NCBI RefSeq assembly: GCF_000003815.2
Contig: NC_049987.1
Span: 7,572,114-7,636,113 of the forward strand
Direction: 5' to 3'
DNA length: 64,000 nucleotides
Source of the DNA: Branchiostoma floridae
Lineage: Eukaryota; Chordata; Leptocardii; Amphioxiformes; Branchiostomatidae
The translations under genes were made by a program, and so were the position numbers. This document shows positions 15,032 through 55,603 of the stretch, piece by piece. The notes under the pieces are model-generated. The model saw nothing but the letters and a program-made list of their open reading frames with translations, searched no databases and was not told the DNA's origin. The first letter of the stretch is position 1. Every line of letters begins with the position of its first letter.

Positions 15032-16287
<1,256 letters not shown>

Positions 16288-20073: not shown

Positions 20074-20091
20074 CCCCCCCCCCCCCCCCCC
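20074..20091 (+). repeat. poly-C tract, 18 bp
   Basis: An uninterrupted run of C. Length may vary between individuals or reflect sequencing error. Confidence 0.9.
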
Positions 20092-20306
20092 AAATTTGGC
20101 AAATACACTGGGCAATACAGTACCTGGCCTGATGACCGAATAGATGAGCTACTAGTATGTCAAGGCTACGTTTGACATTTGATTAACATTAATGCTGTTT
20201 TATCGAGTAGATTCGTCGCCTAGAAGTGGTCAAAGGCCCTTGCCTGCAACAATCTCGTTAAAAAATATCAAACTCCTTGCCAAGATCATAAAATGAGGAG
20301 TACTTT

Positions 20307-21214: not shown

Positions 21215-21220
21215 TTTATT
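21215..21220 (-). terminator. candidate poly(A) signal of Ripply
   Basis: AATAAA on the minus strand about 390 nt after the Ripply stop codon. Confidence 0.4.
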
Positions 21221-21608
21221 TTCAGATTGTCATGTATGAATAAACGTAGTAGGAATAATATTAAGAGTATCATATATTATTTGTTGATAATGATTTGAGG
21301 AATGATAAAACAGAAATGAACTTGTGCAGAAACAAAAGTGAAAACAACGCAATAACATAACAATAGCATTTAAAATAGCGAATATATCTCAAGTATAAAA
21401 ATAAAACTCTTTTCATAATCTGTTATTGTACAAATATTTACAATATTTACAGTCATAAAATTTGGCAAGACGTTACGACATAGCGGATGGTGTGAGACTT
21501 CACGACTGGTATAGTCTGTTCACAGGTATTTGACAAAAATTGGCGACAAACACAAATGCCTAACAGATTGGTGTAGTCGTACAGAAGTGTCCGTGTTTCT
21601 GGATGACT

Positions 21609-21810
21609 CTAGTTGAGGGTTGGCGCCTTTCCCTTGAGGGGCTTCTCGTCAGCGTCGGAGTCGTCCTCGTAGTCGGACTCGAAGTCGCTGTCGTCGCTCT
21701 CGGCGGGGTCCTGGTCGACGATGCAGATGGTGGCCTGGACGGGGAAGGCGTCCAGGAGCTGCTTGCCGTACTGGTACATGTAGTCGTACACGGGCTTGGA
21801 CCAGTGCAGC
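21609..21810 (-). CDS. Ripply: Ripply exon 4 (Ripply homology domain and acidic tail)
   Basis: It encodes the rest of Lys89 and residues 90-155, with FPVQATI and the Asp/Glu/Ser-rich end, then TAG. The acceptor is CCCCAG. Codon use is markedly GC-rich at third positions. Confidence 0.96.
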
Positions 21811-24270
21811 CTGGGGAGTGAAGGACGAGATTGATAAGTAAAATGAAACCAACAACAGTGATCATTAGACTACATACTGGAACAACACTTTTAGCATCTT
21901 GAACGTAACGATACTTTTTTTTTCTTTGTAAGTACCAGGGTAATACATAACCAGTGATTTATAAGTAAGAAACGTGCAGCTAAGCTTTTTGGGTTGAAGT
22001 GTCAAAAACATTGGTATTGACTGTATGTGAAGTTCGCAGTCATTCGATATTAGCGAGAAGAAATTAATATGACACAAAACTTACTTGACAGGGTGCTGGA
22101 AGGCTGTGGGGCCAGGTTCGGGACCACGCGTATCAGAGCCGTTGTTGGTGGAGGAAGGACGGGCATATGGCTGCAGAAAATAAAAGTAGAGGTATGATAA
22201 GTATAATTCTATACAAAAAGAAAAATGATATCACAGAAAATCATAGATACAACAATGTCCCGTTACTGCACTGGAAAGCTGCTTGCATGTTGCGATTGGA
22301 GCAAGGTGCTGCTATGAGTGGTTTGGACCAAGACGCTACTTTTGGTAGGCCAAGGTGAAGAAGTTCAAGAACAATATTCGCACGGGATTCAAAACTTTGA
22401 CCCTGAATCGTTAAAATTCATGTTTCTTTGAGAACATGTGAACCTTACTGAAGTATGTGAAATACATGCAGCAACCGTCCACATGGCGACGACTATGTTG
22501 TTAACATAATTTAGTCTCATTAACTGTTCAATACACATTATGAACACGAGAAGTCAAGAGTATTTGTATACGTCTGACACTTTCTTTGTAGTATTAAAGA
22601 AAGGCGGCCAATTAGAAAGATTATGCCCAATTGTTTTGGAGAAAATGAAGCCATACTTATTAATTAGAGGGCAGGAGAGGCTTAGACCGGAGGTGTGAAC
22701 TTGTTAAAAACTTTCGGATAAGACCCACTCCAAAGGCTATTGAGGCTGAAGGGATTTGGGTCTAATCTTTTGTCTTGTCATTATTTGTTGCACGTCTGCT
22801 AATCAAGGCCATACGATTTGTGTTCCTCGGACCTCACAAGCCACACTATCTTTTGCTCAAACCAAACCATGATTTCCTGAATGATAACAGAAATGAACTT
22901 GGAAAAGGGCTGTTTTTTCTTTAAATTTTGACATGCGAAGTTCAAACTATTATGAAAGAGTGTTATCGAAAGGAAGTGGTGCCATGTGTTGTGGCCTTGG
23001 CCACAGTTCATGAATATGCGCGAAACCCGTGAAAGTAGAGAACATGTGATTTTGGCGTGTTCTTTCAATGTTTCTAGCTTTAGGAACAACGAACCATCTT
23101 GCAAGGTTTTCGGTCTACGAAAAGAAAACGCACTTTAGGGAGGAAGGAAGAACAACGCGTTGGATGCCGTCTACGTCCTGTCGGTGTGCTTCAGTAGTCG
23201 GAAACTGTCTGCCCGGCCCGGCACGAGAGTTTACTCCAACCGGCGTTTGAAGACGAGCGCCCGGGACCATAAAACGTTTTCGGCTCGTCTCTGAACCCGT
23301 CATAAAAGTCTTTATCTGAAGCCCTAAATGGGGAATTGAGTGAGTCCAGGCGACAAATTAGCCCACGAGTCGTGCCTTCGCTGAGTGTATCAAAGTGTGG
23401 CGGCGTGCTTCAGTTTTCACTCCTACGGCTCTTAGCCGACTTTGATCAACAGTTTAGTTTAGCGCCAAAGTATCGAATATGGGCGGAGGAAAGTTCCGTT
23501 TGATGTACAATTTGTTCGGAAGAAACGAGAAAACTCTGGTTTGCAGGGGGCATTCGGAACAGTACCGTACAAAAATCATGCAAAGACATTCCAGTGCAGA
23601 ATCGGGAGTCAGTAGCATTGGCGCTAGATCTACAGGCGACTGTCTTGAAGCCTTGAAGACTACTGGCTGGTAACAGAATTTAAGATTTGTGCCTACCTTG
23701 TTCCGTCTCTCCCTGATGGCGTTGCGTCTCAAGATGTCGCGTTCTGTGACGATCCACGGGCGCCAGACTGGGGCCTGGACGGGCCTGGAGTCGGGAGGGA
23801 GAAATACGATTTAGAACTTGATCACAACCCCTGATGGAAATATTATTACTTCAAGAAACCAGAGCCAAATGGTTGACCGTTGGGCCAAGTCATGGACACG
23901 GGTCATATCAGTTGCCTCGCACAGGCAAGAAAGAACTGCTCTGTTTTGATCTGGGGTTATCATATGCCTATTTCAATTACAATTGTATAGATTTTGTGCG
24001 ATTCTTACTGTATGGAATGATAAGGGCACACTAGCTAACATTGACGCCGTATCTGTTGGGACACAGAAACCGTACCATATTGAACGATATCGCTGTACTG
24101 AGAGCAACTCTAAACTTAAAAGCAGCTCAAATGGGATAAATGGAAAATGAGATGAGTTCAAAAGACATGTCTACTTACATTCCCGAAACCTTTGTCCTCT
24201 GCTTGTGGCAGTTGCACTGGTGCGCTGAGCACAGGGCGGCAGAGTTGAACGTGAATCCGGTAGACTCCAT
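21609..24270 (-). CDS. Ripply: Ripply transcriptional co-repressor adaptor (complete, four exons)
   Basis: Exons 24270-24179, 23784-23697, 22170-22085 and 21810-21609 join to 468 nt and 155 residues. Ripply proteins bring Groucho/TLE co-repressors to T-box factors and act in segmentation of paraxial mesoderm. Both hallmarks are present: the Groucho-binding WRPW at residues 38-41 (in APVWRPWIVTERD), and the Ripply homology domain at about 86-118 (HPVKLHWSKPVYDYMYQYGK then LLDAFPVQATI). The C-terminus is strongly acidic (SDDSDFESDYEDDSDADE), as in the family. The length is typical for Ripply. On the minus strand it faces away from Sim, 29.7 kb from the first candidate Sim exon. A TATA-like TACAAATA lies about 120 bp upstream of the ATG. 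Confidence 0.96.
22085..22170 (-). CDS. Ripply: Ripply exon 3
   Basis: It encodes residues 61-88, PYARPSSTNNGSDTRGPEPG to FQHPV, a linker leading into the Ripply homology domain. The acceptor is CTGCAG and the donor is AA|GTAAGT. Confidence 0.92.
23697..23784 (-). CDS. Ripply: Ripply exon 2 (WRPW)
   Basis: It encodes residues 31-60, with PVQAPVWRPWIVTERDILRR. The acceptor is CTCCAG and the donor is AAG|GTAGGC. WRPW contacts Groucho/TLE. Confidence 0.95.
24179..24270 (-). CDS. Ripply: Ripply exon 1
   Basis: It encodes MESTGFTFNSAALCSAHQCN and ten more residues, ending in phase 2 at AT|GTAAGT. The join recreates an ATG codon (Met31), so a second in-frame start exists at the junction. No domain is recognised. 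Confidence 0.85.
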
Positions 24271-24392
24271 AGTCACAGTGAAGTAAGACGTTCCTGTAGA
24301 GTACAGTAGAGATGGTAGGATGAGCTCGGCGGAGACTGACTGCTTGTAGGACCGCTAGAGGAAAAGTGATACTCCCTCAGCTCCGGCGACGC

Positions 24393-24400
24393 TATTTGTA
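24393..24400 (-). promoter_or_regulatory. TATA-like box of Ripply
   Basis: TACAAATA on the minus strand, 123 bp upstream of the Ripply ATG, at a plausible distance for a short 5' untranslated region. It is a consensus match only. Confidence 0.3.
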
Positions 24401-26615
24401 CCCGAGCTAGCCACGGGCGGCCCTCCCCTCGGCCATGCATACATTTTCACTGATCTGCCTTTTCGCAGGAAGTTGACGATTCCCCGTGTTTTGTTTTCGC
24501 GCAGAAATCCCATTAACTCCACAAAGGCGCCCTGCCGTGTAGGGTGTCATCCGTGCTTTAGTTTTGGCACCGAATCATCATTAGCCCCATTGTGCTAAGT
24601 TGGGATAGTCGCATAGGCTTGAATGAAAAGGGGCTGCATAATTTTAAGGAGAAGAATCAAATGAACCTCCCATTTTTCACTTTTATGGACTCCCGTTTTC
24701 AGAAACAAGTTCAAAACGCGAGTTGAACTTCACCGTGGGAAAGTCCAGGTTTTGGTGTCGCGTTTCCAGATGGGCGATTTCCTATCAGCGTTTGGCCAGG
24801 ATTCGAACCATCTGGGAAGTTTGTTATTCCATCTGGGACGAATTTCGTATTCCTGGGGTTAAATGCTCAGGGGGCTCGCGAGGAGGCACCCCCCCTCCCA
24901 TCGCCTCGTGAATTGGTCATGACGTCGTGCCTAGCTGTACTACAATTAAATTTGGCTGTTTTAGCACGTATGCACCATTCTCGTGAGAGAGTGCGAACAG
25001 GGATGGCGGGGTAGTGCGACTTTCCTTCACTCCCAGTCAGCCACACCAATGAAAAATTGACACAGCTACAATAATCAAAATATGGAAGGAAAGAAAAACA
25101 AAAATACTGCTACTGCCAAAGAAAAACATCCCTGCACACATGGGACTTGTGGGAGTATAAAGTGATTAACTTCAAACGCACAAAGTTTATGAAAAAGCTG
25201 CCCCTATCAAAAGAAAGTTGTCACAAAAGATGCCGTGAGCTCAATTAACCTCTTTTATGATCTTTTATAGCAGACACTCTACTGGTCCTCTATGTAAGAA
25301 TGGATCGACTTTGTTATTCTTACTTGGAGTTTATTTATCTAAGAAAATAAAGAAACAGATCATGCCAAATTGTAAACACAGAAGATACTAAAAACCCACA
25401 CATGCGTTTCTGCAGATAGCTGACCAAACAAACTTGTATACTCGAAAGTCGGAAGAAAACAAATTTCATAAACATTCAAAGGAAAAGCATGGAAATATTG
25501 TCTTTGAAAACCAAGTGCATCACCAAGTGTTTTATTTTTCACAAAATTTCTATCAGGTTCAAGTCATACGAGTCCAACATAGTTTTGCATTACTTTTACC
25601 GTTCAGATTTGCTGTTGAAACCCACAGTTTCATTCTCCGCGTTTACAAAATGTGACGTTACTGGAGGTAGGCGTACGCGAAGGGGGCATGCGTTTTGCCA
25701 AGCACCTCATAATACTCCGCTAATGTTGTGGTAATGATGTGAAATGGGGGGCGAGAAGAAATTTTGCATGAAAACCAGACGTTTCCCCTGACGACCCGTC
25801 CCTCAGCGGGGATACGGGCAAAATCGCCACCAAACCCGAGAAAAGGGTGGGAACGCACTTGGATGAGAAATTCCACCACTCACCGATAATGAACTGGGCG
25901 CACACGGACTGATACTGGGGCGCGCGCGGAGTGGCTAGGAAGTGTGCCAGCCGAGTTTATTGTCACTTTTATATAATCATCAACACATTCCCTTTGATAT
26001 AAAGCTGAAAAATCTTGATACTTTACATACTCTTCCAATTCCATTAGGAAAAGGCCGTTAGAAAAGTTGATGGGAAAATGAGTTTAGTGATAAATTTGCC
26101 AAATGTAGCAACTTTACGTGATTTTTGCCATGGCACTAGTGAATAGACACACGGATGGCACAACATATGTCTTCAAAAACGTCTTGCTTAAACGCCCATA
26201 ATCTTTATTATTAACCGTCAAGAATCCTTGATGATAATGCATCATTTTCCTAGCATTATCATTCTCTTATTGTTGAAATTTTAAAAACGGCCTGTTTCTC
26301 CTCCCATCTATGTGAAAAGCCGTTATATCCGAAGAAGTTTGCAGGTATTGAGTTACAAACTCCCAAACACCCGGTTATAGAAACAAGTTCAATCCTTGAT
26401 CCTTTACAAAAATCCGTTTATGGTGATTTTTTGTGTTTTTGTACAGAATATATCCGAGAAGAAACCACACGTATCGTTTCCGGGCAAACAGAAAATATGA
26501 ATATTCACGTCATGTCATACGGAGGAAAGTGCAAACACTAGTATTTGAGTTGATTCTACAAGACAAAAGGGAAGACAAGAACCCATGGTCGTATTACCGG
26601 ATTATACTGTATGAT

Positions 26616-26617
<2 letters not shown>

Positions 26618-26665
<48 letters not shown>
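26618..26665 (+). repeat. (TG)n microsatellite
   Basis: About 24 uninterrupted TG units. Confidence 0.95.
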
Positions 26666-26667
<2 letters not shown>

Positions 26668-27114
26668 CTGTGAGTTGTTCGTCCGTGAACTGTTAGCACT
26701 GAGACAAACGGGCAAAATGGTTGAGCAAATGTTGGGAGATATGCGTTACCTCCTGGAAAAGAATGAGAACTGTCATATCATAGCATAACTATCATATCAT
26801 AGTTCCAGTATAAAACTCCGGTCATAAGTTTTTGCTTTTGCGGTGTGTCAAGTCCTTGCGTTCCTAAACTTTGAAGTCATAAACGACACCTTTGAAAAAC
26901 AACGGTAAGAACGGTAAGATGATCATACGAACGTTAAAACAAGGGACATGGGACATATGTTCAGAACTCGTAAAGGATTTCTTGCCATCTGTGAAGCTTT
27001 CAAGATCTTTCAATTAATCCAAAGTGAGCAGCTAGAATAACAAGGTCAGCCCGTTCCCATGCTGCGTCCGTAAGGCGCTCCCCTCACACCGAGTTACGAC
27101 TTCTCGAGCCGGTG

Positions 27115-27414
27115 CGATGAACGTATGCCCCTTCGTATGGCTTAATTTCATTAGATCTCGTTACGAGCTCCGTCCGTAGCTGATGCGAAATGTGCTTCTT
27201 TGTACGTATAACGTAGAACAATCGCCTTTGTTTATATGACGATGCTTTTCAATTTGAAGTAGCTCGATGAACGTATGCCCCTTCGTATGGCTTAATTTCA
27301 TTAGATCTCGTTACGAGCTCCGTCTGTAGCAACACGAAATGTGCTTCTTTGTACGTATAACGTAGAACAATCGCCTTTGTTTATATGACGATGCTTTTGA
27401 ACTTGAAATAGCTC
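27115..27414 (+). repeat. two tandem copies of a 150-bp unit
   Basis: CGATGAACGTATGCCCCTTC starts each copy, at 27115 and 27265. The copies differ at few positions, mainly around CTGATGCGAAATG versus CAACACGAAATG, so the duplication is recent. Confidence 0.85.
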
Positions 27415-27628
27415 GGCAGACGGCGGCCTGGTGTGAACCCGCCAGTACTTGTGTAGTGCGGCTGGGCCATGTTGTAAAACTTCAAGTTCTGAAACTCTAA
27501 CGCATACTGGTTTCCTTAGAGGTTCAAGCGCAATCTTGTTACACATTTTGCCGCATGATTCGTACTGCATGATTCGTTGTCAATAAAAAAAGGAAATGAT
27601 TGAAACAAACAAAAAGTGTTTATATCGA

Positions 27629-27805
27629 AGTCACTTTCGGGCCGGTTTATGAGGACACGCAATGTGCACGCCTACCGGACCGCTGATGACTTCGCAACCC
27701 TGCGCCCATCTCATGGATCCGCCACCCTTCACACGTACGTACGAGCTTTGGCCGGACAGACGAACAAAAGCACAGTGGAACGTTTCCTGTGACCTTGTGG
27801 CTTCA
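27629..27805 (-). CDS. unrecognised exon-like open frame, copy A
   Basis: On the minus strand an acceptor-like CATTTTGTAG is followed by an open frame of 58 codons. It encodes DEATRSQETFHCAFVRLSGQ and later CEVISGPVGVH, ending in TGA. The CEVISGPVGVH block matches WEVISGSGGVH of copy B (28548-28790), with most base changes at codon third positions. I do not recognise a family. It could be the last exon of a small duplicated gene or a conserved non-coding block. Confidence 0.25.
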
Positions 27806-28547
27806 TCTACAAAATGAAATACGTACGCAACCATTAAACAGCTGAACGAACGCATCTGGCACGGTATATTTGATATTTCATATTTCGGCTCACTACGTTG
27901 AAATAAAAATGCCTACCGATTGGCACATGGCCATTACGAGATATCTGTTTGTTTTTTGTTTTCTTGCACAAGTTCTCAAGTCCGTGTGATACAGGCATGG
28001 CTGATACGGCAGCACTTCATTAGTCCAGGCAGTTTGCACCTAAGTACAAATTGAGGGGTGACGTGTGACTGAGGTAGCTAAATCCCGATCCCTGCTAACG
28101 CCACGGATCTGCAGTGAAGATAGAGTCATGTTTTTCTTGTGACTTTTCGTCTGCTCCAAGGAAACAATACACACGTATATACACACACAGATACACATAC
28201 TCTAGTACACATGCACGGGTATGAATATATGTATCCTATTGTCACCTGACGAGTACCCGAAGAAACGTCGAGTTTTCAAATGACCGTACAAAGTGGTCGA
28301 CGGCATGTTTCAAACATGCTGAAACGTGTTTTTGGCTCATTAGGCTTCTTACTGCCTGAGCCGACTTACTTTTTTCCCTCTCTTCTCTTTCTACATTTCT
28401 TTCTTTCTGTCTTCATACTTTTGTTTTGACTTTAATATGACAGACTGAAGACTGAGAAGCACTTTTAGATAAAGATACGGTGAACGGGCATGTCTAAACT
28501 TTAATTGATGTCAAAACGTAGAACTGGTTTCAACATTAATTGGTGGC

Positions 28548-28790
28548 CTAAACTATGATTTCAAAAGTACAATCTACTTCCAAGTTTGCCACAAGGTGCA
28601 CGCCTCCCGAACCGCTGATCACCTCCCATCCAGCGAGCCCCTCGCACGGCGCCGCGAGCCCGGCCCACTTTTCAGGGTTACACTCGTCTGCAAGTTCGCT
28701 GTTGTCTTCCAAAATACAGACAGACACACCTGGCAAAAACTCCCACGCTTCGTATTTGTCCGAGTCTAATACAAGTCCACTTCATAAAAG
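28548..28790 (-). CDS. unrecognised exon-like open frame, copy B
   Basis: The open minus-strand frame includes YEAWEFLPGVSVCILEDNSE and WEVISGSGGVHLVANLEVDC, ending at a stop at 28548-28550. It shares the (W/C)EVISG(S/P)xGVH block with copy A at 27.7 kb. Flanking non-coding similarity (27968-28017 against 29251-29300) suggests a larger duplicated segment. No family is recognised and the 5' limit is uncertain. Confidence 0.25.
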
Positions 28791-31700
28791 TTGAACGTCG
28801 TTCTAAGTATTATTAAACTTTAAAGGACTGCGTCACATTTTCTAAAGTTTATGCCAGTAAATATGCACAGGCATGCTGTTGAATTATTTTTGGTTCGTTT
28901 TGTGCTTTTGTTGTCTTCTATATGTTGTACTTTTCGTTCCCCAAAACTGCCCGTCCGGGCCTCTAGATGGAAATGTGACGTTAGCCTAAACTAGGATGTA
29001 TATTTTTGTGCGCATGGAGAAGTGTTTTATGATCTTTTAGGTTACACCGTGTTTATAGAGGTGCGTGAAGCTGAATGATACAAAAACTGTAAATCTACGA
29101 TATATAAAGTAGCACAGAGTTCAAGTGCGTCAAGCCCAAACAATCCGGGAAAAGTGTTTAACAGAATTTTAGCCGCGGAGCCCACTTTCGGTCACGAAAT
29201 GTGCTAAATAGGCGCACGCAGTTTTGCTGATCATTTTTGCGCCTCAGTACAACATCTCGAGTCCGTGTGAGATGCGCATGTCTGCTACGGTCTGATTCTA
29301 TTACGACTTCCAGCGCGTGGGATTGTTTTCACCCATAATCATTTCGCAGCAAAGGTCAAATTGAGGAAGTTCAACGGTGGACAAGGTGTTCTTTGTCTTG
29401 AGTTTGTTTCCCTGAAACCTTGACCTTTGTCTTGTGTTTAAAACTCAACGATGTTCTCAGATACAGGCAAAAAGATGCATGTAAAGGCGAATTACCTAGC
29501 GAAATACTGTGTAACCAATAACGGACTGACCTATTGGAGCTAACTCTGACGATGTTCCGCACACGTACATGTATATAAAGTTCTAATGGGAAATGTATAG
29601 TCATATTAGGTCATGTGATTTTATCTTGCCCTTGGAATACACACTCCAGGTACACATCGCTGCCAGTTACATTTCTCAACGTGCATCACTTAAGTAGTCG
29701 CAAGAGATGTTCACATTGCTACATATACAGGGCTATCGCTACTTTTATCTTTACCTGACTTCCCCTTTGCAAAGTTTCATCACAATACTTTATTTGGTTT
29801 AGATAGGATAGTTCAACTCTCTCTTTGGAAAGAGGTTTGTGACATTTGTTTTAAATCTTGGCTGTATGTGTGGCCTCTGAAGATGTTTATTTTCGTAAGA
29901 GATAGGAACTTATGAATATTCACTGTTTGTGAATGTGTACGATTAGGAATCCGAGGGTGGCTTAGCATAGCGGGAACATGTGAAGGACTTAGGCTGGATT
30001 TCTGTTGCGTTTTTTCTTACATTCTACTTGACTTGTTATCATTCCGATACTCGTATCTACACAAAGGCAAATTAATCACAGTCAGTTTTGTTTAGATCTG
30101 TAGAGCGTTTCAGTGTAACAATCACCAGAATGAACTAATTTGGGTCGAGGGGCCCTGATGGCTTGCCTCCCACTCACCGCCTTTCTTTGAACAGTTTTAT
30201 TGTATTTTCCTTTAGCGCAAATCAAAACTCATTTAAACTCAATTCAATTCAATTTTAGCCAGAAAACAACCGTGCTGGCATTTTTACTTACGACTTTTAA
30301 AGACGATGGATATGTGTTCCGAAGATCATATCTCATATATTTTATTCATGACTGATTCACACCGTTCTGCTATTGACTCCTCGGACGATGGCGTTAGCTC
30401 ACACATACTCACAAACTGGTACGGGCCATTATAGGGAGTGAGGCCGAGCTGTGCTCAGAAAATGTGTAAATAGTGTAACTTATAAGGCTTACAGCACTAG
30501 GCGTAGTTGTTCAATCATAAGTCATTGAAATAATAAAATTAATATCCTACTTGTAGCTTGCATTATAATGATCGATCATAGAATTAGAAGGCCATAGAAG
30601 CAGGTGCTTTTGTATTTTGCAGACAACTCTTCACTCTTATAGCAAGGAGTTTAAAAATGACCTCCTTGCTTATAGTTACAGAACATCTAAGTTTAACTTT
30701 GGTAACTAGTACCATGTTCAATGTCAGCAAAACGTTACACAAGTATAGGCAAAATAAAAGCGCTCCTATATTAGACATCGGGTACAGGCTTTCGCCTAGT
30801 ATTCGGCAGTAATAAACTCCAACTCAAAGCGCGTGTCTCATTTTGTTTATTACTGAGGAAGTTGATTCACATGAATATGTCAAAGCCTCCTGGGCTCATT
30901 TTCGTTCCCACTCAAATTTGATTACGACCCTGCCAAGTGGTTTGGACAGTTGTTGTTGTGATGCTGTTTTCCAGATACATATGGCGATACGAGCGCGATG
31001 CCTGCTGGGATGGGTAATTGGTGGGTCATCAAATCTGGAGGCCTGGCGGGACGGAGATAGGATCATCTGTCTGTGTCAGGCGCGCATTCCACAGATGGTT
31101 CTGCACCACACTCAACTAGATATATTTATCAATCTTCAAATAGTTTAATTGGACCAGACGTCCATATTAACATCAGCGAATATGAAATGTTGAAGTTCAG
31201 CTAGTGGTCGGGGGTTCATGACATTAGTTAATTTGACTATATTAGTAACTTCAGAATCTATTGCGAAAACACTAATGCAATAGGGTTGTGTTTTAGTTTG
31301 TGCGTGTTTTATAACTTTTATTTTAGTCTCGAGAAGCTGTGAATGACTCCTTTGGGTATTTGGAAAAAGGGTTAGGAAAACTAAACGAAGGTGAAATTCC
31401 ACAATGCTAACTATTACGGTACAATAGATCTTCCAGTTTTGCTACTACATTGTAGTACTGGAGTATCTCCTTTTCTGGTTTTCCAGTGCGTCTCAGGAGT
31501 CAAGACTCTTAAACCAAGCCACTGGCATATAATGTGTAAAGGCACTATGGTCCTTTTTTTCGCAAAATGAAGTCATATTATAAAGGTGGATCTTACTAGG
31601 ATGTTCAAGGTGTATAAGAGGCGTTTTGTCTGGTAATTGACACCCATTTGAAAAGGGTTGGGAAATGGAGATGAGGGTGTGTACCATTGAAATAGCTGCA

Positions 31701-32169
31701 TCACGCCTTGACCTAAACTTTTTTGGATGTTTAAAGTGTTTCCAGGGCCTATACAGACCAACTGAGTTTAGCCGGGACGCCAGAACGTTTCCAGAGCCTA
31801 ACGTTACATGGGACAACTGAGCTCTGCACGATAGACATGATAGAGTTATTTCTAATAGGAAACATCACATTATTATTGAGATCAGGCTGGGGGTCTGGAA
31901 TTCAGGCTACGACTAACAGACTACTAGTATAAACTACACACGCTTTTGGGAAACCGACTCATAACACTTCTTATACATGTACATAACCTTCTTGTTGAAT
32001 TAAACAAGCAGCTAACACTGCGAAATCCATATCCTCCAATATTTTTCACCGGCAAACTTCACTTCCGCATATGCACCTGGCCTAAAGTTACACGCTGACC
32101 TTTGACATCTTGCTGTGTTCTCATTGGCTACTCTTCATAAGCTAGCGGTTGAGCTCCATCGTCACGAAA

Positions 32170-32241
32170 GGTTCTATGGTGTAATGGTTAGCACTCTGGA
32201 CTCTGAATCCAGCGATCCGAGTTCAAATCTCGGTAGAACCT
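32170..32241 (+). tRNA. tRNA-Gln (anticodon CTG)
   Basis: A complete 72-nt tRNA folds cleanly. The acceptor arms are GGTTCTA and TAGAACC, the anticodon arm is CTGGA-CTCTGAA-TCCAG with anticodon CTG, and the T arm contains GTTCAAATC. A and B boxes are intact and there is no intron. It is nearly identical to the vertebrate tRNA-Gln(CTG), with a compensated change of the seventh acceptor pair. CCA is not encoded, as usual in eukaryotes. Confidence 0.97.
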
Positions 32242-32248
32242 AGAGTCC

Positions 32249-32253
32249 TTTTT
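32249..32253 (+). terminator. pol III terminator of tRNA-Gln
   Basis: A run of five T starting 8 nt after the tRNA. Confidence 0.85.
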
Positions 32254-40318: not shown

Positions 40319-40480
40319 CTGGTACGGTTGTATCGGCTTGTAGTAGGCTTGTATTTCCAGACTGTGCAGGTGGAGCGAAGTTTGTGGAAGCGTCAGGTGG
40401 GCTGTGTGTGAGGTAACCTCTCGGTGGGTTTGCGCCGGGAGCAGAACACGGACTGTGGTGGGGGCAATGGCGTGTACGAA
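40319..40480 (-). other. candidate untranslated first exon on the minus strand
   Basis: A strong TATA box (TATATAAA, 40508-40515, minus) is followed about 30 bp later by a stretch without ATG. That stretch ends at a good donor, ACCAG|GTGAGTTT (40319/40318). The transcript it would start is unknown; a non-coding RNA or a distal exon is possible. Confidence 0.25.
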
Positions 40481-40507
40481 AATGATAGCAATTCCCTGCT
40501 AGCCACA

Positions 40508-40515
40508 TTTATATA
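40508..40515 (-). promoter_or_regulatory. TATA box (TATATAAA)
   Basis: A perfect TATA consensus on the minus strand, correctly placed relative to the donor at 40319 for a first exon of about 160 nt. Confidence 0.3.
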
Positions 40516-43080: not shown

Positions 43081-43131
43081 AAATTACCATTTGAAATGAC
43101 GGTAAATGATAAGTTTTTCAAATGGTAATTT
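43081..43131. repeat. perfect 16-bp AT-rich hairpin
   Basis: AAATTACCATTTGAAA (43081-43096) pairs with TTTCAAATGGTAATTT (43116-43131) around a 19-nt loop. It could be a tiny fold-back remnant or a short hairpin RNA. Confidence 0.6.
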
Positions 43132-46100
43132 TCTGAACGCTTCAACTAGATTTGATACATTTGCCGATTGCGTTCAATGGGCGTAATGGCTGAGATAAAG
43201 CTATGTATGTACCACGTTCTTCTGTACTATGGTGTATTCTGTGTTTTATTCTATTATAAAACACAAAATGAGCGTACTCAAAGTACACGAGAACTTCTAA
43301 CGTTTCTGTCGTTTATTGTATCCTGTCATAGGCGATTGCACGAAAACTTTCCGATTAAAGGCTGGTTAGAGAACTGCTCGCCTAAAACTAAAAGGTGCTC
43401 AAAACAATCTATCATTAAAGTTAAGTCCAAGGCAGCCTTGTCGTACTGTGATGTATGTGTGGTTTATGTTTCCTGTCTGCTGTGCACATACATTGTACAT
43501 AAACCTGGTCCAGGTGGGACGTGTTGGGAAACCGCGGGCGTATATGTGGGTTCTCGGGTAGCCTGTTCAATCTATTTGTTATGATCATCCCTGTGAGTAT
43601 GAAAAAATACAATTCAATCGTCTAATTCCTTGTGAAGAGTTATTCTATAGCCAGGTTTTCGCAAAACTTTCAGGATCAAAATATAGACAACATCTTTCTC
43701 GGATCAAGAACCCACCCAACCCTATCTCCGAAAATAAAAGCGGTCAACACTTCCGGAAAACAAAATGTAACATCTAACTTCGTCTGGTAACGTGAAGTGA
43801 CTCAAGAACTCATCGTCAGTTGTACTGACCAAGTATCAAACAACACACGAAAACGGTGAAGACTGGGGGCTAGTATTACTGACTCAAACTTTGGGACTAA
43901 ATTTGACTAGAACTAACATTGTCACTTCCTTACTTAATTGTGGTTGTTCAAAGTTGATACAGGATTGAAGTGTTTTCATTCTAATTTGATGTACCTTTGT
44001 TTACTCTGGGATATATCAGATCTGATATTCGCACACATATACACGCGCGCGCATGCTAAATATACAGATGTTTTTGCATATTGATAAGAGACATGATTAA
44101 AGAAACGACAGGACGACCCTGCGGTTGATGTATCCTTTTTAATCCGTCACTGTCGTGCGAGAGTTGCGGCAGGAATTCGGAAGGCCGGATAATGAAGTCA
44201 TCCGTTTTAAACCTGCGGCATGAAATCGGCTAAAGCGCAGAGAAATCCACGATTACCCGGCTTTCACTGTCCCGTACGGGGATGATGGTGGCAATGATGG
44301 GGATAGATAGCTTAGGCACTCTTTCCACTGGAGGATCGTAGCGACCATAATTAGAGTTGTGTGACCATTGATTTCATAATTGGAATATGATGCAAGGGGT
44401 GGGGTAAAAGTTTGTTTATTTGTTTTATTAAGATCTCCATTATTATTAGACGAGTACAGCATTATCCTGCCTGGAGTCCAACTACATTTAAGCAATAAAA
44501 CGAGATTCTAGTACAAGAACTAAACTTACACAATCGTTGCACAGTGAAAATAAAACATAAACAAATTTAGCGAACTTAAAAATGATTGGAAGAGGTCAAC
44601 ACAAATATTGAAAACATGATTCATGTATGATTTTAAAGACAACTTAAGACAGGAAAAAGTAAAATTCTCGCCGAATCTTGTGGAAGGGGTGTTAGAGACG
44701 CCATGAACGTAAAGTTTAGCTTCTGATCGTCACTGTCATGTCGTAGATAAGCAAGACCGTCATTTATCTGACGAAGCAAGCCACATTACAAAGAGCAACA
44801 AAAGAGGACATGATAATAGCAGATGTTTATGGGGAGTGGACCATAAAATATATGACAGCTTCACGTGAAGTTGATGTACAGTTTACGAGAAAAGAGTTGA
44901 TTTATCGAACGACATACGAAATGGACGGTTTGTGGACGGTTTCATCTCGGTAATCATGGGAGACAATTTTTGGTAGTAGCCATAAAGGAGACAGTTAAAT
45001 CTTAGTCTATAAGTTGTAAAATCTGTAAATAGTATGGACATTCAAGTGAGAGTTGTTAAAAACTGAGATACGAGCATATACATGTATAACTAGAAGTTTG
45101 AAATGGTTCTGATTTTATGATATAACAAACACATTAAATACATAAAAACAACTTTTTAACTCTCGAATATTTTGTAAGCTTCCTTCTCAGTACAGGCTTT
45201 GAACATTTTGAAAGTCTAGTTTTTGGTTACAATTATGGAATATCGTTGTTGACTACATGAAATCATTACGACTTTCATTGGAGATATCTACAAAAAGAAG
45301 GAAAGCAATGAAGGTCCATAAAGCTTGTAAAGTGCTAGAAAGTTAGATATTGCAGCTTCTGCTCATTCCTTTTTATTTCATAGAAATTCTTACAGGGAGA
45401 AATCACAAGAAAGAAGATGAAGAGGACAAGATTGGCTCTCAGCTGTGTAACCATTAAGCTATGATAACAGCATTGCCTGTCTGTCTATACTAATTAAACC
45501 TTTCAATCACAACTCTACATTAATCACTCGCCTTGTGATGCTGCTTTCCGTCCAGGAGAAAGTGAATTCCAAGTCCGCCGGAACCATCCCCTCCTCTCCT
45601 CACCCCCACCAGAAGTGAAGACAAGTTGTAACAGTAGAAATCCTCCCCCCTGATAAAAACCTCGACAAGCTAGCCGGAGAGGGGGAAACCATACGTGGGA
45701 CGGTCCGCTCCGTCTTTCGGCGGGAATCTGTCGACGCGCGCTGCCGGGCGAACATCTGGAACAACAGCTCCCCGAGTTGGGCAGCCACTTCAGCATTTAT
45801 TATTCTTGGTAGCGTGTCAATCTTAAAGACCGAGTAGACTTCCTCCGAGACGTCTTCTTGTAATACAAACCTGTTACTCAGTTGTCACTTTCTACACACA
45901 CACACAGTGTCCGGGCCGGGCGCGTATCTATCACATTGCCATGTCTCCTACACTCACTAGCGTATAGTATAACTTTGGTTGAACCTTTTGTTTTCCTTTA
46001 CAGCTTCTATACGAATATCTCACGCATTTTGCAATTGTTCAGGGAGTCCTGTCACTGATTGTAGGTAGTGAGGTCGCACAGCCCATGTGGTTTGACTTTT

Positions 46101-46568
46101 CATAATCCGCTTACAATGAAGGTTGGGAGTCTCCCCGGACTTGACACTGAATTCCAAAAATCATAACCGTGACGGCCTGTTGTCTGACACCGAGACACAC
46201 TTGTTTTTGTTCTTTAACTTCCTGACATTTCACTTCGTAAGAATTCCCAGAGAAACGTTTCTGAGTGTCAAGATGGCTGGCAAGTTCAGCAGACACAAGG
46301 TCTTTTGGTTCAATGTTGACCAGCACATACAATACTCTACCAAAGCTGTTTGACAATGAAAAAAAGTTAATGACAAATATACTGGAAGTGGAGCAGACTA
46401 TCAACAATGTAAGTATATTTCATCACATATTTCTTTCCCTGTTATAATATATACCAACGATCCTAAACTACAGAGATGGAGATAATGTTGTCCAACTCAG
46501 TTTTCAAACTTTCTCTCCAGATTTTATAACGTTTTATCTCTTATTCTACAATCTACATACTCACTATC

Positions 46569-46625
46569 GAGAGAGAGAGAGAGTGAGAGAGTGAGAAAGA
46601 GAGAGAGAGAAGGAGAGAAAGAGAG
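46569..46625 (+). repeat. GA-rich microsatellite
   Basis: A 57-bp nearly pure purine tract of GA units with occasional T and AA interruptions. Confidence 0.9.
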
Positions 46626-49600
46626 GTTGAAACAAGCTTTGTGATGCGTATAAAAATATATTCAACGCTGTCCCTTCTAAAAGGTATAAAGGGTTAAAAA
46701 GCGATTCTGCCTGCCCTGAGACACCATACTGTCCCCTTGGACTTGACCCGGGTCGCGGGTGTAGAGGCGTGGCGGGGTGTTATGTTGCAGGCCCTGTTTC
46801 CCTTCCATTATGCCCAATAATTGGTTTAAACAGATATACACTGGGCCATTATACGGGTCTCAATTCAGGGCCGAGATTGAGAATTTTTAGTAGAGACCCG
46901 AGGCGAGGATTTGTCAAAGTACTGAGCTGACACTGTCATCATTGAGGTGAGTCTGCATGGTTTGTTTACTGTATGACGTCCATCATTAAACAAAAGTTGC
47001 GATATGAAAGATTTCTGCCCATAGTTTGGCTGCATACAGTAGTAGCGAGACTTAAATCTCTTCTTTCGGCAGCTCAAGAGTTATCCAAGCCCCAATGAAA
47101 AGAATAAAAGTTGTCTATGCTGTATTGCAACAGGAAAAGTCTCCATCGGTACAGGTTCAAAATTTATTGGCTTATAAAAAGTCGGTTTTGAAAGGTACGA
47201 GTCGAGCTGATCCTAAGATATCCTCGGCTTCTTAATACTATCATCCTTCCTTGTTACAACTTAAGTCTCTATGCACTGCCGCATTAAGTGAATGACCTGC
47301 TATCTAGTATCAACAATTCAAAACTAAACAGTACCGCCAAACTGCTTGTTGTATTTATATTTGATAACACAATAGACGCGATAACAGATATAGGTCGATA
47401 AAGACACGTTGTTTGAAGAACCTGAGTCTATATTGCAGAATGTAAACGAATTCCCGTGGTGCAATGATGTTGCCCCGTGACGTTTCGGCGATCAATAAGT
47501 CGTTAGCCGCTCTTAATTAGCATTTATTTCACTTAATTTGAGACCAGGAGAAAATCAATTTCCACTGTGAAATGCCGCTGGTGTGAGAGGGGAGTGGGGA
47601 GGGGCGCGAGTTTGTTGTGTTTTCGGTAGAGCGTTGAGGGTCGGAAATGTGTGGTGTGTTTTTGTGGGTTCCGTGTTTTGTAGAACACCGTAACCATGGA
47701 GACGAAAATGTGACACAGGTCCGCCCAGGTGTTGACTTCTTTGCTGTACTGCCTTACCGACATTAAACCAACTTTAAGCAGAAATGTAAGTGGGAGAATG
47801 ACATGCTAGACTGTGCGTATAACTATACAACTCCATATCTAATAGAAAAGAAAATATAGAGAGAGAATAAGTAAAAGATTTAGACATTTTTTTCGTCAAA
47901 ATTTTGTACTTTCTATTTGATGTCATTCAATGTCAGATCAAGTCGGCACTTATATTTCGTACTTCAGCCAGTGATTACAAATTTCATGGTCCTGGGACCC
48001 CAGATGACAGTTTGTCCCAGTACATGATTATCCTTGTTCAATCGTTATTGTAGGATGTAAACGCTGTGTTCATAGTTTGCACAATAACTATCAAAATATT
48101 TATTTGTGCAGTAAATATTATAACTCCAATCAGAAATCGTGACTGGAATATTCCGAAGTTCGGAAGCAGCACACCGACCGCTGATCATATAGCCAGCATA
48201 TGAAGTCGTACCTGACAAACGGAAGGGCCACACAGGTTTCCCGTACAATTATCAGTTTAATTAGTTAAGTATGTAGTCAGGTTTACATCTATGATAAACG
48301 TTGTTTGGGTATCTCTTACTGTGGAAGCTTGAGTCGATAATGGTAGCTTGTTCACACAATTAATACAGTTTGAAAGACTGAATGATGTTTGTGAGCGTTT
48401 GTCGAAGACACTACAATAACGAGTACAATGTACCACTTGTTTTAGGTCTAATCAACTTATCACAGTATATTAACTATATAATATTTTGGATTTTTATGAA
48501 CCAACAAAACAGATCAACGTAACTTTCTTCCCAAAGCTCATAAGATTCTACATCAATACCTTTATATGCCATAAATGTAACAGCATCTGATAGGAAAGTA
48601 TTACGACTAATGTTACGTTCAAAATCCAGTTATAGCGCTGTTTGCAATTATTGGTTGTTAGTAACTTGTTACAGAATTGAAGTAGCATAACACTTTTCAC
48701 TGGCTTATGGATTTTTAAAAGTCTTGATGTCCCATATCATGTATTTGAATGATAAAGCTATGTTGTATATGATTTAAACACGCGCGTGTTTTCGTCAGTT
48801 CTATGTGTAATATGTTTATAGCAAGCTTTAAACAGTAATAGTACGTATCTTTTTAAAGTATAATTTTACCAATAATAGATTTTAATCAAATGTGAATCAA
48901 CGAATACGTAAAAGCGTGTAATTCAGTTAACTGGTAAGTTCAAAGTAGTGCAATAAACCATCCATTCATTCATGTAAAGTCCGTGACTGTAATTTTATTT
49001 CAGGCGCACTAACCCAGATGTATTAAAACACTGCAGTGATGTGTATGTAATATATCAGATGGGTACAAAATGCATCGTAGATTCCCGTATGTTGTTGGAA
49101 TAATAACCTGTGTGTGAGTATTTTGACCTGAGCTTATAGCGTTCCCGCTAACAGCCGACAGTGTGCGACCCGTCTCGTATTTACGGTCGCTGTACCTTTG
49201 GTAAGCGCTGAACTACATCGGAGCGGGGTTACCTCTGTCCCCAGACGCTTCCACGTTAATTAGATTTCCAGATCGTCGGCTAATCCTGTCAGTATGGAGG
49301 ACAACACCGAGATGATGCGGGGCACCGGCCGTCATAACAACAATAAACAGGACGCACTTCATCATCGGACAGTAACCGCGGCGTGGCGGCACCTGCTGAC
49401 GGGAACGGCATGGCGGACAAACATGGCGGACATTGTTCCACCTCGAGAAACGATCTGCAGGATGATTTCAGTCAAGAGATGATGAGCCTAGAAGATCTGT
49501 CACAGTGCTTATTGGTTTATTCATAAGTTCATGACATTTTTATCTAGTACTTCTGTGTTTACAATTACATCATTTGCTCTAAAAGTTTTGCGAAAAAGGG

Positions 49601-51108
49601 AGTCTCCAGGAATCTTCACAAGTTACACTACTAGTATGCCTCATCAGTGGTGTCACAATTCAATTGCATAAAAAGAGTAAAAATTTTGAATGTGAATAAC
49701 ACATTCCCTATATCATGATGAATGAAAATGTTTATACGAATAGATTTTGCATTGCACTGCATTGCATTGACTGGGGAAAAACGTTTTTCTGTTTATTTTC
49801 TCTGGCAATACCTCTCCAATAGTTGGTGCACTGGTACTAGTTTGTTTATATGAGGGAATGTCAGTAGTGTTAACATATGTAGGTAATGTCTAAAAGATTT
49901 GAACGTCTGACTCATTTGGTAATATAGATCACATGTGTGTTAGACGCAAGAGAATGTTTTCTAATGTATAACACTGTAGATTTCATTTTGTATCAATGTG
50001 CCTCAGTAAAATACACCGTGTGAACTTCGATTAGGCATCACCAGTCATGTTGTCTGCATCTTCGTTATCGAATGTTAAGTGTGATGGATGCTCTAAATTC
50101 TCGTTAACAGACTTTTCATGTTAATCCGCTGTTGGGATTAATCTAGGAAGAAGCTGATATTTTATTTCACTTTATTGAGCGACGAAGAAGAATTCCAACA
50201 ATTCACCTGACATGACAACCAGGGACGACACCCATCCACTTTTGTCGTGCGTCCCGTACGTCAATCAACCGAACGCACCGAGACATCCTCTTCCGAAAGT
50301 TGCCCGTCCTTCCTACGATGTACCGACTCTACCGTGCTCTGTATATGTTGATATAAAAAGTTGATAAGTGCCTCCACTTATGACATATCTGTCTGCTGAC
50401 CAACCTCTTGACACAGGCACATGATCTCTGCACCACGGTGGAGCCAGTGTGTCCATATTTGTCGCCAACCATCTGTCAAAGACCCATCAAGTTGAAATGA
50501 AGAGCCCCGAAGTCGTCCTACCAGCCTATGGGACGCGCCGCTTTTTCTGGGGGTCAGTCCTGGCCGAAAATTTTCCCCGTGCATCTGCGCTACATTATAA
50601 CCTGTCCCATATATGATCGCGAGCTCGCCTTCCTGACAGCGTATGTCCTTTGACTCCGTCAAGGCGGGACCGGGCGATCAGGACGTGTCATCTCCACTGC
50701 ACACACCCGTGGGGATTTTGAAAATGAAGTCGAGTGAGGAAACCCCGTACACCGACACCGCGCTGAACGCGTAAGTATGATGATATTAGACAGTGTTGTT
50801 TCTATGGAGAAGCTCCAACAACTCGGACCGAACATGCCTGCCGGGTTCAGGAGACGGTGTTGATTCCCTTGCGTGACTCTTCGACACGTTTGTGCACTTG
50901 CTGGAAGTGAACTTGACCACGGTATCTTATCTAAACGACTTGGCGCGCTCATCACGAGGGGCTGGATCGCTAACGAACACCAGTCGTGACGTCGTTTCAA
51001 TTCTTTCCATCTCGTTAAAATGACATTTACATTTATTGATATTTCAAAAGGTCCAAAGGTTGTCAAAATCCGGCTTAGTGTAAACTATGGTACAATGACC
51101 TGCCAAAA

Positions 51109-51677
51109 ACGATGTTCACATTTATCCCACTTCAAGAAACTAGGAAAATGGGGTTAGTTTTCATTGATGACTATCTACACATCTTTTACTTTTACCACCT
51201 TTGTGCAGACATGTGAATTTGTCATACATTTCAAACTTGGCGATGATCACATTTTCCCAAGGCAAGAAACTACAAAAATGCGGGTAGTTTTCATAGATCT
51301 GGACATCTTTTATAACCAAGAGAAGGGATAAAGAACCGCCAAGCCTTTGTCTTGGCATGTAAATTCGTCGTAAATTTCAAACGATGTTCACATTTTTCCC
51401 ACTTCAAGAAACTAAAAAAATGCGGTTTTCATAGACGACTATCTACACATATTTTATAACACAGAGAAGGGATTAAGAACCGCCAAACCTATGTCCTGAC
51501 AGTACGGTAAATTTGTCGTACATTTCAAACTTGGCGATGATCGCATTTTCCCACGTCAAGAAACTACAAAATGTGGGTAGTTTTCATAGACGACTATCTA
51601 CACATCTTTTATAACCAAGAGAAGGGATTAAGAACCGCCAAACTTTTGTCCTGACATGTAAATTTGTCGTAAATTTC
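51109..51677 (+). repeat. minisatellite, four copies of about 145 bp
   Basis: Each unit carries the blocks CAAGAAACTA, GTAGTTTTCATAGA (or a variant), ACATCTTTTATAACC and GTAAATTTGTCGT. Copies start near 51109, 51236, 51380 and 51534, and they differ by substitutions and small gaps. No coding is apparent. Confidence 0.8.
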
Positions 51678-53960
51678 TACATTCTGACAGGAGCACAGGA
51701 GAGTGAGCAAATCTCGCTAAACCCTGAGCACATGCCGGACTCATAAAAGCCTCGCTGGTGGCCACTTGCTTCTAATACTAAAGTCAATACTCGGGTATTT
51801 CAGAAAGTCCTCGAGGTGGAGAAGTGACCCCTTTTGCATAATACCCTGGTTTGGTCCTCAAATAGCCCTGCACCTGCGTTGACTAAACTGTCAGAGTTGT
51901 CAAGCCCTTCACTTGTACGCTTTACACCTCTACAATAGCCAGACAAAGGCTCGAGCCGTCCGCAATGGTCCCTGATGTCATGGAGGCGCAAACAAATTGG
52001 AAACAAAAATCTATCATCCGTCTTGGGTTTGACGCGAAGCTAATTTTGAGTATTGACGCAGCGCACAAGTGCGTGTAACCCTTTTCTTTTTAAAGTCAAA
52101 CGTTTCCAAACTTAGCAGAGGCCTGACTAGTCGTACAGTGGCAGTCAGACGGCGGCGTCAACACAGGACCAAATATTATTTAGAAGTCCTGTCATGAAAA
52201 GAAACGACCATGACCGAACTAAGTTCATTACTTCTAACCAACGCGAGAGAGCTCAGCTAATTAAAGAAGTAGCGGCCAACATTACAGGGGGGTATATATA
52301 ATTGTGTAGGGTTATAGCAGCGATCCCGGAATATACAGGGGGTGTAAATATGTCAGCTAACGCCGTGCGAGTATCGTGACACCCCCCGCAGTGCCGACAC
52401 ATCGTGGGCCCCATCTTGCAGGTGGCAGGCCGACAGGTTGATCGTCTTGCTGCAGTACTTCAGGGTGCTTCAGTCCCTCTCGAAACTTCCTATTGCCCCT
52501 TGTTGTTGATCGCTGTGTGTGCCTGTTTTCTCCCGCGCACTAATCCGGCTGCTACCACAAACTCACCAAACACGCTGTCGCTGGGGGATTTGTTTGCGCA
52601 AACTCAATAAATCGCGATAAGACTCTATCATCGACCTTGTTCGACACCTCTGCCGCCGATAAGGGGAATCTCCCGTGTATTAACCCCGGCGATAACCCCC
52701 AAACACCCGGGCCACATTTCTCACCTGTGATCCGCGCTCCGCGGAGGAAAAATTTGCTCAGAAGGGTGCGTCAGCGTTAAAACATACCGACCCTTTGTGC
52801 GGCTGTGGACTCTAGACCCTAAAACGCTCCATAGTCACTCCATCAATGGTCGCCAGAAAGAAATCGGTACGATTAAAGCGGCCGCGTTGAAAGAGCCAGG
52901 TAAGAAGACAGGTATGGTTGATTTATCAATCACAACAGGTATGAATACAGCATCTTATCGTGGACGGAAAGGTGGGAGATAAGAACCGATGAGGAGTAAG
53001 AAGTGTGGGCGACAGGCCAGGCTTTCGGCACGGTGGTATCGCGTGACAGGTAAGTACAGATAACCAAACAGAACACAAATAATCGAACAAGGGTTTCTGT
53101 ACCTTGTTTGGACCACATGAGGGTCTCGCGGTGAGGTACGTGTGACATGGCGACGCGGAAACAAGGAAATATCGCACGCGTCGGAAAAATAGTCGACGAA
53201 ACAAGTTCAAGAGGAGGAAATGGGGTCGACACCGTGTTTTTTCTAAACATGTGATATTGTTCAACAGTGGAGCTGGGCTCGGTGATAAATGTTTTGCCAA
53301 CATCAAACACAGACCGATAATGTTTCCCTACACGTGTCGCGACATCCTTAGTTCTATACGTACACAGTAGCGAACACGTGGAAAACCATAAAACTACAAT
53401 CCTCACACATGTGCAGCTGCGCGAATGGAATGCAAGATACCAACACCCTTGCGACGTCTCCCATGTTACGCTATTGCTGGAAAATATTAAGCGCAAAGGT
53501 GAAGACCCTCAACCTATTTCACAGCTTGTCATTGAAAACAAAATGTTTCGCGGAGTTAGACCCCCCCCCCCCTGCTTATGAACGACAGATACCCCTTGTG
53601 AAGTGGGACAACAATGGGCAATAACCGATTGCTACAAGGGTGACAGACTTGCAAAATAGGCCAATGGGAGGGCGGGTAGACCCCGGGACTAACCAATGAA
53701 GGACGCGGTCACGGAACGTGCGGCCGATGATTAATAGAGATTTCCTTATATGCCTCGCCAACGTGCAATGACTAGAGTTGCAGTCACCATTTATCATCAC
53801 ACATAGCGAACTGAACTTGTACACGAGACACACCGTAGTCCTGGTCGGGAATATATCTTGACTTAAGAAAAAGAATTGTGATATCTTGAGAACAAAGTCG
53901 CATCTTGAGCTATGGTAGTGAGAGCAGCAGGTGCTATCGGCTGATCCGGCGGTGACGCAA

Positions 53961-53995
53961 ATGTCCCGGCAGAGCCCCCGGTCCCCACTGTCTAG
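53961..53995 (+). CDS. candidate 5' coding exon A of Sim
   Basis: ATG at 53961 follows an in-frame stop at 53919-53921 and opens MSRQSPRSPLS, ending in phase 2 at AG|GTGAGT. The phase matches exon B at 54164, which in turn matches the Sim bHLH exon. It has no recognised domain. Support is splice signals and frame only. Confidence 0.4.
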
Positions 53996-54163
53996 GTGAG
54001 TGAGTCCTCATGCGCACAGGACATTCAATACGGACTTCCCTCTCACCCTCCCTCTGAAATTCTCGGGCGTCCCGAACGTGCTGTTCCCACTGTAATGCCA
54101 CTCCACCACAACATGACTGAAGAAGTGTTCACTATTTTGTTTGGTGTTTATTTTGTCTGGTAG

Positions 54164-54241
54164 CCCATGCCCGAGCGAAGAGGCGGGGGTTGAAGAGGAC
54201 TCCAGGATAAGTGGCGACGGTGAACCCGGTGAACAGACAAG
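54164..54241 (+). CDS. candidate 5' coding exon B of Sim
   Basis: The acceptor TCTGGTAG at 54156-54163 leads into SPCPSEEAGVEEDSRISGDG and EPGEQT, ending in phase 2 at AG|GTATCC. Joining to 55419 gives ...[14 protein letters not shown]... without a stop. The segment is acidic and probably disordered. The donor is not strong. Confidence 0.4.
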
Positions 54242-54779
54242 GTATCCATCCGTCTATCTACCCACCACAGCCCACACGTCAGCTAACCACACGACTGTCT
54301 CATTAAAAACGTCTCAGAAAGATATCATCTTCCTCTACTCAGTAAGACCACAAAGTAGTGACAGGGATTACAGGATAACCGTATTAAGAAAAGTTTGGAA
54401 GTTGTTCTAAAAACGTACGAATAAGTTGCAAGCGAAGTTATAAACAGAAAGAAATAGAGGAGAAAATACTTTCCCGTGTGTCGGACGACCTGGGTCCTGA
54501 GATATAAGATAAGGCAAATGTCAATAGGTGGGGGGAGTCTTAGTCCCCGTGTGCTATGGACCATGTAATCAGCCACGCTCTCCTACCTCGGCGATTCGCG
54601 AAGGGAAATGTTATGTGCATAGTATAAATACATTAGGGGGCGGGGAGAGGAGAACCCGTGTCGGCCAGGGTGACGTAGTAGAAACTGTGCATCTCATTCA
54701 GAGTAGAGAGGGGAGAGAATGCTCAGCACATCGCCCATAGCGCACTGGTGTCCTCCCCACGGGCACTCTCAATAACAAA

Positions 54780-55010
54780 AGCCGGTCCAGGTCACCGCCA
54801 GCCGCGCAGACGGGACTTTGAGCCAGTGGCACGCGGACGACGTCGCCGCTAGACCCTCCCTAGTATAGAGACGTCCCCGTCCGTACGTAACGTCACGTCA
54901 CGGGACCCGGGGGCACAGGAGCCCGTAGATACGTACCTCCAAGGTCCTCAAGGACGGTTCAGAACACACACCGGTCACCGTTACAACTTGGGAGCACGCG
55001 ACCCGGCGTA
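54780..55010 (+). promoter_or_regulatory. CpG-rich region with a possible untranslated Sim exon
   Basis: The stretch is dense in CG dinucleotides and ends in a strong donor, CGTA|GTAAGT, at 55010/55011. It may hold a Sim promoter and non-coding first exon that splices to the acceptor at 55417-55418. This would be an alternative to exons A and B. Confidence 0.35.
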
Positions 55011-55428
55011 GTAAGTTTCAGCTGCGTGTTTGTGTGTATCTGTGTGCTCGTACGCGGACTATGTGTCTGTGTGTGTGTATGTATGTTGACTTGTTGTTAA
55101 CAAGACTACGTGTGTGTGGTAGGATCTTATAGTGTAATGCGAGTCCGACACATTCCTTCCGTTCATCATACTTGGACTCAGAGGCCAAGGATTACAACAA
55201 TCTCAAACAGAGACAGATTCCCTCCAAATCTCAGAGTAAATACAGACCAACTTTTTTTTCATGTCAAAGGAAGTTCTTATGTGTCGAGGGGAGGGAGGGT
55301 GTCAGAGTCGACCCGTCCGCCGTTACATCATGTGAGGCCTGGTAGTCGGTGTAGGAATGTGATCACCAAACAGTGAGCTAACCGCCGCGTGTTGTTCCCT
55401 CCATGCCGTTCCCTGCAGGGTTGAAGCG

Positions 55429-55603
55429 ATGAAGGAAAAGTCGAAGAACGCGGCGCGGACACGCCGGGAGAAAGAGAACTATGAATTCAGCCTTCTCGCC
55501 AAGCTCCTGCCGCTGCCCTCTGCCATAACGTCCCAACTGGACAAGGCAAGCATCATCCGTCTCACCACCAGCTACCTCAAGATGAGGGCCGTGTTCCCCG
55601 AAG
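55429..55603 (+). CDS. Sim: single-minded (bHLH-PAS transcription factor), bHLH exon, partial gene
   Basis: It encodes [20 protein letters not shown], then [20 protein letters not shown] and [18 protein letters not shown], the basic region and helix-loop-helix of Sim with only a few changes from vertebrate SIM1/SIM2 (YEFSL instead of S/GEFYE). Sim proteins dimerise with ARNT and specify midline and neural cell types. ATG at 55429 matches the conserved protein start and lies 10 nt after an acceptor (CCCTGCAG, 55411-55418), so an upstream exon exists. The exon ends in phase 1 at G|GTAAGC. The PAS exons must lie to the right of the window. NPAS1/3 is the other possible family, but [17 protein letters not shown] and FPEG fit Sim best. 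Confidence 0.95.

Follow-up and report, generated by a model that had tools for sequence, protein, structure and literature searches.

A Ripply gene and a Sim-type exon stand next to each other, in divergent orientation, in a 64,000-nucleotide stretch of the Branchiostoma floridae genome (contig NC_049987.1, positions 7,572,114 to 7,636,113; hereafter the window), and they probably represent an ancient neighbour pair that was linked before the vertebrate genome duplications. Ripply is a co-repressor that brings Groucho/TLE, recruited by its WRPW motif, to T-box factors, which are bound by its FPVQATI motif. Sim is a basic helix–loop–helix (bHLH)–PAS factor whose partner is ARNT. The two start codons, at 24270 and 55429, are separated by 31,159 bases (about 31.2 kb).

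A preliminary description of this DNA had reported a complete Ripply gene on the minus strand. The coding region was found to be complete in four exons, from 24270 to 21609, with a product of 155 amino acids:

24270-24179, minus strand: Ripply exon 1, followed by a gt donor
23784-23697, minus strand: Ripply exon 2, holding the WRPW motif, with an ag acceptor before and a gt donor after
22170-22085, minus strand: Ripply exon 3, with an ag acceptor before and a gt donor after
21810-21609, minus strand: Ripply exon 4, with the Ripply homology domain, FPVQATI, an acidic tail and the stop codon, preceded by an ag acceptor

The report of a complete gene was thus confirmed by standard splice signals, by the 468-nucleotide open frame running from ATG to stop in the joined exons, and by the match of Pfam profile PF14998 (Ripply) to the spliced protein (E = 3.6e-19, 69.5 bits with a cut-off of 27, profile positions 1–83 of 86). 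The same profile matched the stop-to-stop open reading frame (ORF) at 21609-21869, which contains exon 4, with E = 7.5e-10. The domain from WRPW through FPVQATI is contained in the single spliced protein.

The Sim side of the pair is represented within the window by one exon:

55429-55603, plus strand: Sim-type first coding exon, with the initiator methionine and the bHLH domain, ending in FPE and then a gt donor

Pfam matched this exon with bHLH_HIF1A (E = 1.6e-15) and HLH (E = 2.1e-5), and its bHLH belongs to the HIF/NPAS/Sim group. Among the 19 PDB matches listed, the closest solved relatives were NPAS3 (1.5e-20) and NPAS1 (1.1e-17), and none was a SIM chain. We tentatively take the exon to be Sim rather than NPAS1/3 from residues expected of Sim, which directly follow the initiator methionine. 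The earlier assignment of a Sim bHLH exon to the plus strand stands as far as the bHLH goes, by the bHLH_HIF1A match, and is plausible for Sim by those residues. No PAS domain was detected downstream in the three forward frames of 55301-64000, the window end; either Sim has a first intron longer than 8 kb, in which case it would run on beyond the window, or it is no longer an intact gene. The outer coordinates of the preliminary description (21609 and 55603) were correct to the single base.

Between the two genes lie a long interval and one RNA gene:

24271-55428, no strand: interval, candidate regulatory DNA, free of any recognised protein domain as judged by Pfam, ORF-length shuffles and Rfam
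32169-32242, plus strand: tRNA-Gln (CTG), predicted by ARAGORN and matched by Rfam RF00005 (69 bits at 32170-32241)

Twelve translations, spanning 24401-54400 in all six frames, were searched with Pfam and yielded four weak matches (E = 0.098–0.34), all under the cut-off; beyond 54400, Pfam cover resumed at 55301 on the plus strand and at 54501 on the minus strand. The minus strand of 54501-64000 gave no Pfam match, and Rfam (at gathering score) and ARAGORN found no RNA gene other than the tRNA-Gln. ORF counts in 24401-55200 were compared with 100 dinucleotide shuffles. The counts were 46 against 39.7 (standard deviation, sd, 4.7) at 80 amino acids or more, 14 against 14.0 at 100 or more, 8 against 5.0 (sd 2.2) at 120 or more, 4 against 1.7 (sd 1.2) at 140 or more, and 1 against 0.25 at 180. 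The longest ORF, of 192 amino acids, was equalled in 18% of the shuffles, and the long ORFs lie within about 2 sd of the shuffled values. These counts indicate a slight surplus of the longest ORFs, so a gene lacking a Pfam domain could still be present. A hidden gene between Ripply and Sim is disfavoured by the Pfam and ORF statistics, with the slight surplus at 140 amino acids or more leaving some room for one. Within the power of these searches, the arrangement first described, two adjacent, divergent recognised genes about 30 kb apart with a tRNA alone between them, was borne out. Two tandem repeats also lie in the interval, at 27115-27415 and 51197-51677, with units of about 149 and 155 bp.

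An assembly join error between Ripply and Sim was considered. GC content, near 0.42 and mostly 0.37–0.45 in the window with a peak of 0.53 around 55 kb, climbs between about 50 and 60 kb (0.45–0.53 against about 0.41), as a join might produce. Nevertheless, the window has no runs of N, and a false join would hardly reproduce a vertebrate pairing. Such an error is very improbable.

Human SIM2 and RIPPLY3 lie on the same strand, about 0.3 Mb apart, while SIM1 is on human 6q, with megabases separating it from RIPPLY2. The human order CBR3, DOPEY2, MORC3, CHAF1B, CLDN14, SIM2, HLCS, RIPPLY3, PIGP, TTC3, DSCR3, DYRK1A is given within 1.57 Mb in the available part of PMC9996016, whose table has HLCS as entry 7 and RIPPLY3 as entry 8. 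Like the lancelet locus, this 21q22 region holds one Sim and one Ripply close together. The teleost RIPPLY2–SIM1b pair, which the preliminary description had not cited, is a closer parallel than the human one. It involves the other ohnologues, and the available text of PMC8004712 places it in the cluster SOBPb-MRAP2b-RIPPLY2-SIM1b in almost all teleosts examined, with Ripply listed directly beside Sim as in the lancelet. Unlike that cluster, the lancelet window shows no recognised MRAP2 or SOBP. On zebrafish chromosome 4, mrap2b adjoins ripply2, and sim1b is named in a synteny figure legend (PMC11277097, available in part); SNAP91-Ripply2-CYB5R4 is given as the order preceding a bovid inversion in the accessible text of PMC7060313. 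As far as the available parts of these papers go, the two genes are near each other in human, side by side in teleosts, and neither in reedfish nor in the tetrapod RIPPLY2 cluster (PMC9996016; PMC8004712). Two vertebrate ohnologue pairs together with the lancelet locus make inheritance from before the duplications likelier than coincidence.

Several observations weigh against this inheritance. The human genes share one strand, unlike the divergent pair of the window, and HLCS is listed between them. The mirroring of vertebrate RIPPLY3-SIM2 that had first been proposed is therefore loose: what stands of it is the nearness of the two human genes within one 1.57 Mb region. None of the other 21q22 genes named in the available part of PMC9996016 was recognised elsewhere in the window. 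Moreover, in the available text of PMC8004712 reedfish stands as an exception without the teleost cluster, and the tetrapod cluster given there, NT5E-TBX18-CEP162-MRAP2-CYB5R4-RIPPLY2, names no SIM1; the teleost adjacency could thus be secondary. The proposal that the linkage predates the vertebrate genome duplications accordingly draws on the human region and on teleost RIPPLY2-SIM1b, and is weakened by the reedfish and by the tetrapod RIPPLY2 cluster.

Random placement was simulated with three Ripply and two Sim genes at uniform positions, for a pair chosen after the window had been seen and with no correction for that choice. A distance of 1.57 Mb or less between some Ripply and some Sim gene came up in 0.61% of draws, and one of 0.3 Mb or less, the approximate human distance, in 0.12%. 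When the other Sim gene also had to lie within 17 Mb of a Ripply gene, the shares fell to 0.02% (1.57 Mb) and 0.004% (0.3 Mb). Adjacency in the lancelet and nearness in vertebrates might still have independent origins. The selection of the pair after inspection of the window favours such a coincidence, as does a vertebrate spacing that ranges from side by side to the megabases between human SIM1 and RIPPLY2. The same can be said of SIM1 not being shown in reedfish or in the tetrapod RIPPLY2 cluster in the available text of PMC8004712. With a random pair within 1.57 Mb in so few draws and the teleost pair uncounted, however, coincidence is improbable.

The interval was then assessed for regulatory signals by counting nine motif patterns against shuffles. 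The counts were 0 against 1.0 and 6 against 4.1 for T-box, 2 against 1.9 for RBPJ, 30 against 28.1 for E-box, 76 against 99.8 for Mesp-like, 4 against 7.1 for FoxA, 4 against 1.9 for Zic and 0 against 0.4 for RARE sites. The sole raised pattern of the nine was CME (RTACGTG), a Sim/ARNT-type site, with 13 occurrences against 6.7 (z = 2.34). Its density was 4.2 per 10 kb in the interval (13 sites) compared with 0.8 per 10 kb in 1-24270 (2 sites), and 55604-64000 contained none. In a control with 60 permutations of equal composition, RTACGTG ranked second, tied with two others. The signal is weak because of this tie and because the left flank is CpG-poor. Motif enrichment was rejected as a sign of shared control, given that only CME was raised and that the permuted controls make it unremarkable; the motif tests found no convincing regulatory signal in the interval. 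The density of CME in the interval counts in favour of the proposed pair, and the motif counts with their permuted control weigh against it.

The observed/expected ratio of CpG rises gradually from the left end to the interval, with values of 0.49 (1-10 kb), 0.82 (10-18 kb), 0.90 (18-24 kb), 0.94 (interval), 0.91 (55429-62000) and 0.64 (last 2 kb). This profile is consistent with unmethylated developmental DNA next to methylated genes under mosaic gene-body methylation, and says nothing on regulation.

Published expression agrees with shared control only loosely. BfSim expression begins in the dorsal mesoderm/mesendoderm at the early neurula and is found later in the cerebral vesicle (PMC4066832, in the part available), and amphioxus Ripply marks the non-myotome part of the somites and the first somite pair (available parts of PMC11136973 and PMC4660845). 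The early mesodermal expression of BfSim and the somitic expression of Ripply would allow an overlap in early paraxial mesoderm. A candidate early mesodermal enhancer common to the two genes is possible.

How an old linkage was kept is a separate question. The two genes could have belonged to one linkage group of the ancestral chordate and simply never have come apart, without sharing control DNA, and we regard such passive retention as a possibility of some weight, although not the leading one. Amphioxus and vertebrates keep chromosome-scale linkage groups, the motif tests in the interval gave no convincing signal, and HLCS is listed between human SIM2 and RIPPLY3 (PMC9996016, in the part available), all of which fit it. 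Against it, gene order inside these linkage groups is heavily rearranged, yet two ohnologue pairs are reported close in the available parts of the papers cited.

If the linkage is old, distal control elements are the likeliest single reason for its long persistence, although we hold this with some reserve. One Ripply and one Sim would have been near neighbours before the vertebrate genomes were duplicated. One or both genes may depend on distal elements, located either in the interval or in the Sim intron, and breaks at these places would then be disfavoured. The pair stays adjacent in the lancelet window as two recognised genes, and its duplicates would persist in human, where RIPPLY3 is near SIM2, and in teleosts, where RIPPLY2 adjoins SIM1b, as the available parts of the papers place them. 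That Ripply and Sim are under shared regulation is, overall, rather doubtful. The fullest form of the idea is less likely still: a pre-vertebrate regulatory unit whose enhancers, placed in the interval or within Sim, would drive both genes in early paraxial mesoderm. This would have held the pair together through both duplications, with RIPPLY3-SIM2 and RIPPLY2-SIM1 as its two remnants.

The window is eukaryotic by its introns and animal gene families. Pfam cover of the left flank comprised six frames of 6501-21500, one ORF for 1-6500 and two ORFs for 21501-24400. A CHMP3-like ESCRT-III gene lies on the minus strand, with exons within 11157-12074; all four of its PDB matches are CHMP3, and Snf7 exceeded the cut-off only with both exons joined. 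A complete histone H2B variant of 132 amino acids, also on the minus strand, has two introns (exons 16287-16125, 15738-15602 and 15130-15032). Replication-type H2B genes normally lack introns, and this variant at 16287-15032 may resemble the vertebrate intron-bearing H2B.K. The left flank also holds an EF-hand exon under the Pfam cut-off and, at the window edge, an ankyrin-repeat exon. RNA_pol_Rpb8 and G1_gp67_N matches there (E about 0.05, under the cut-off) were taken as chance. Nested inverted repeats at 1427-2258, with arms of 197 nucleotides (91% complementary) and 151 nucleotides (85%), are transposon-like, of foldback/MITE type.

The Ripply–Sim pair may already be tabulated in a Genome Research 2012 list of ancient gene pairs. 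Among the literature matches listed, no title or abstract opening described this linkage as an ancient pair. The terms sim1, sim2 and ripply are absent from the main text of PMC6784235, ripply from PMC6292497, and sim2 and hlcs from PMC12469710, while PMC6543554 contains both ripply and microsynteny terms; the RIPPLY2-SIM1b neighbourhood of teleosts was already named in the available text of PMC8004712. The main texts examined gave no primers for amphioxus Ripply or Sim. Should other lancelets and an outgroup confirm the linkage, the developmental gene pairs joined since before the vertebrates would gain a somite co-repressor and a neural/mesodermal bHLH-PAS factor. The idea of a shared enhancer could then be put to a direct test at RIPPLY3-SIM2, which lies in the Down syndrome region of the human genome.

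The ancient microsyntenic pairs around Pax1/9, Foxa, Tbx2/3 and Egr offer the nearest known comparison: as with Ripply–Sim, a developmental regulator has a long-kept neighbour (PMC13317027, in the part available). At those pairs the paper describes conserved non-coding sequence together with chromatin domains, whereas Ripply–Sim is known here from the sequence of one genome. The likeliest class for the lancelet locus is a further example of such ancient microsyntenic pairs around a developmental regulator.

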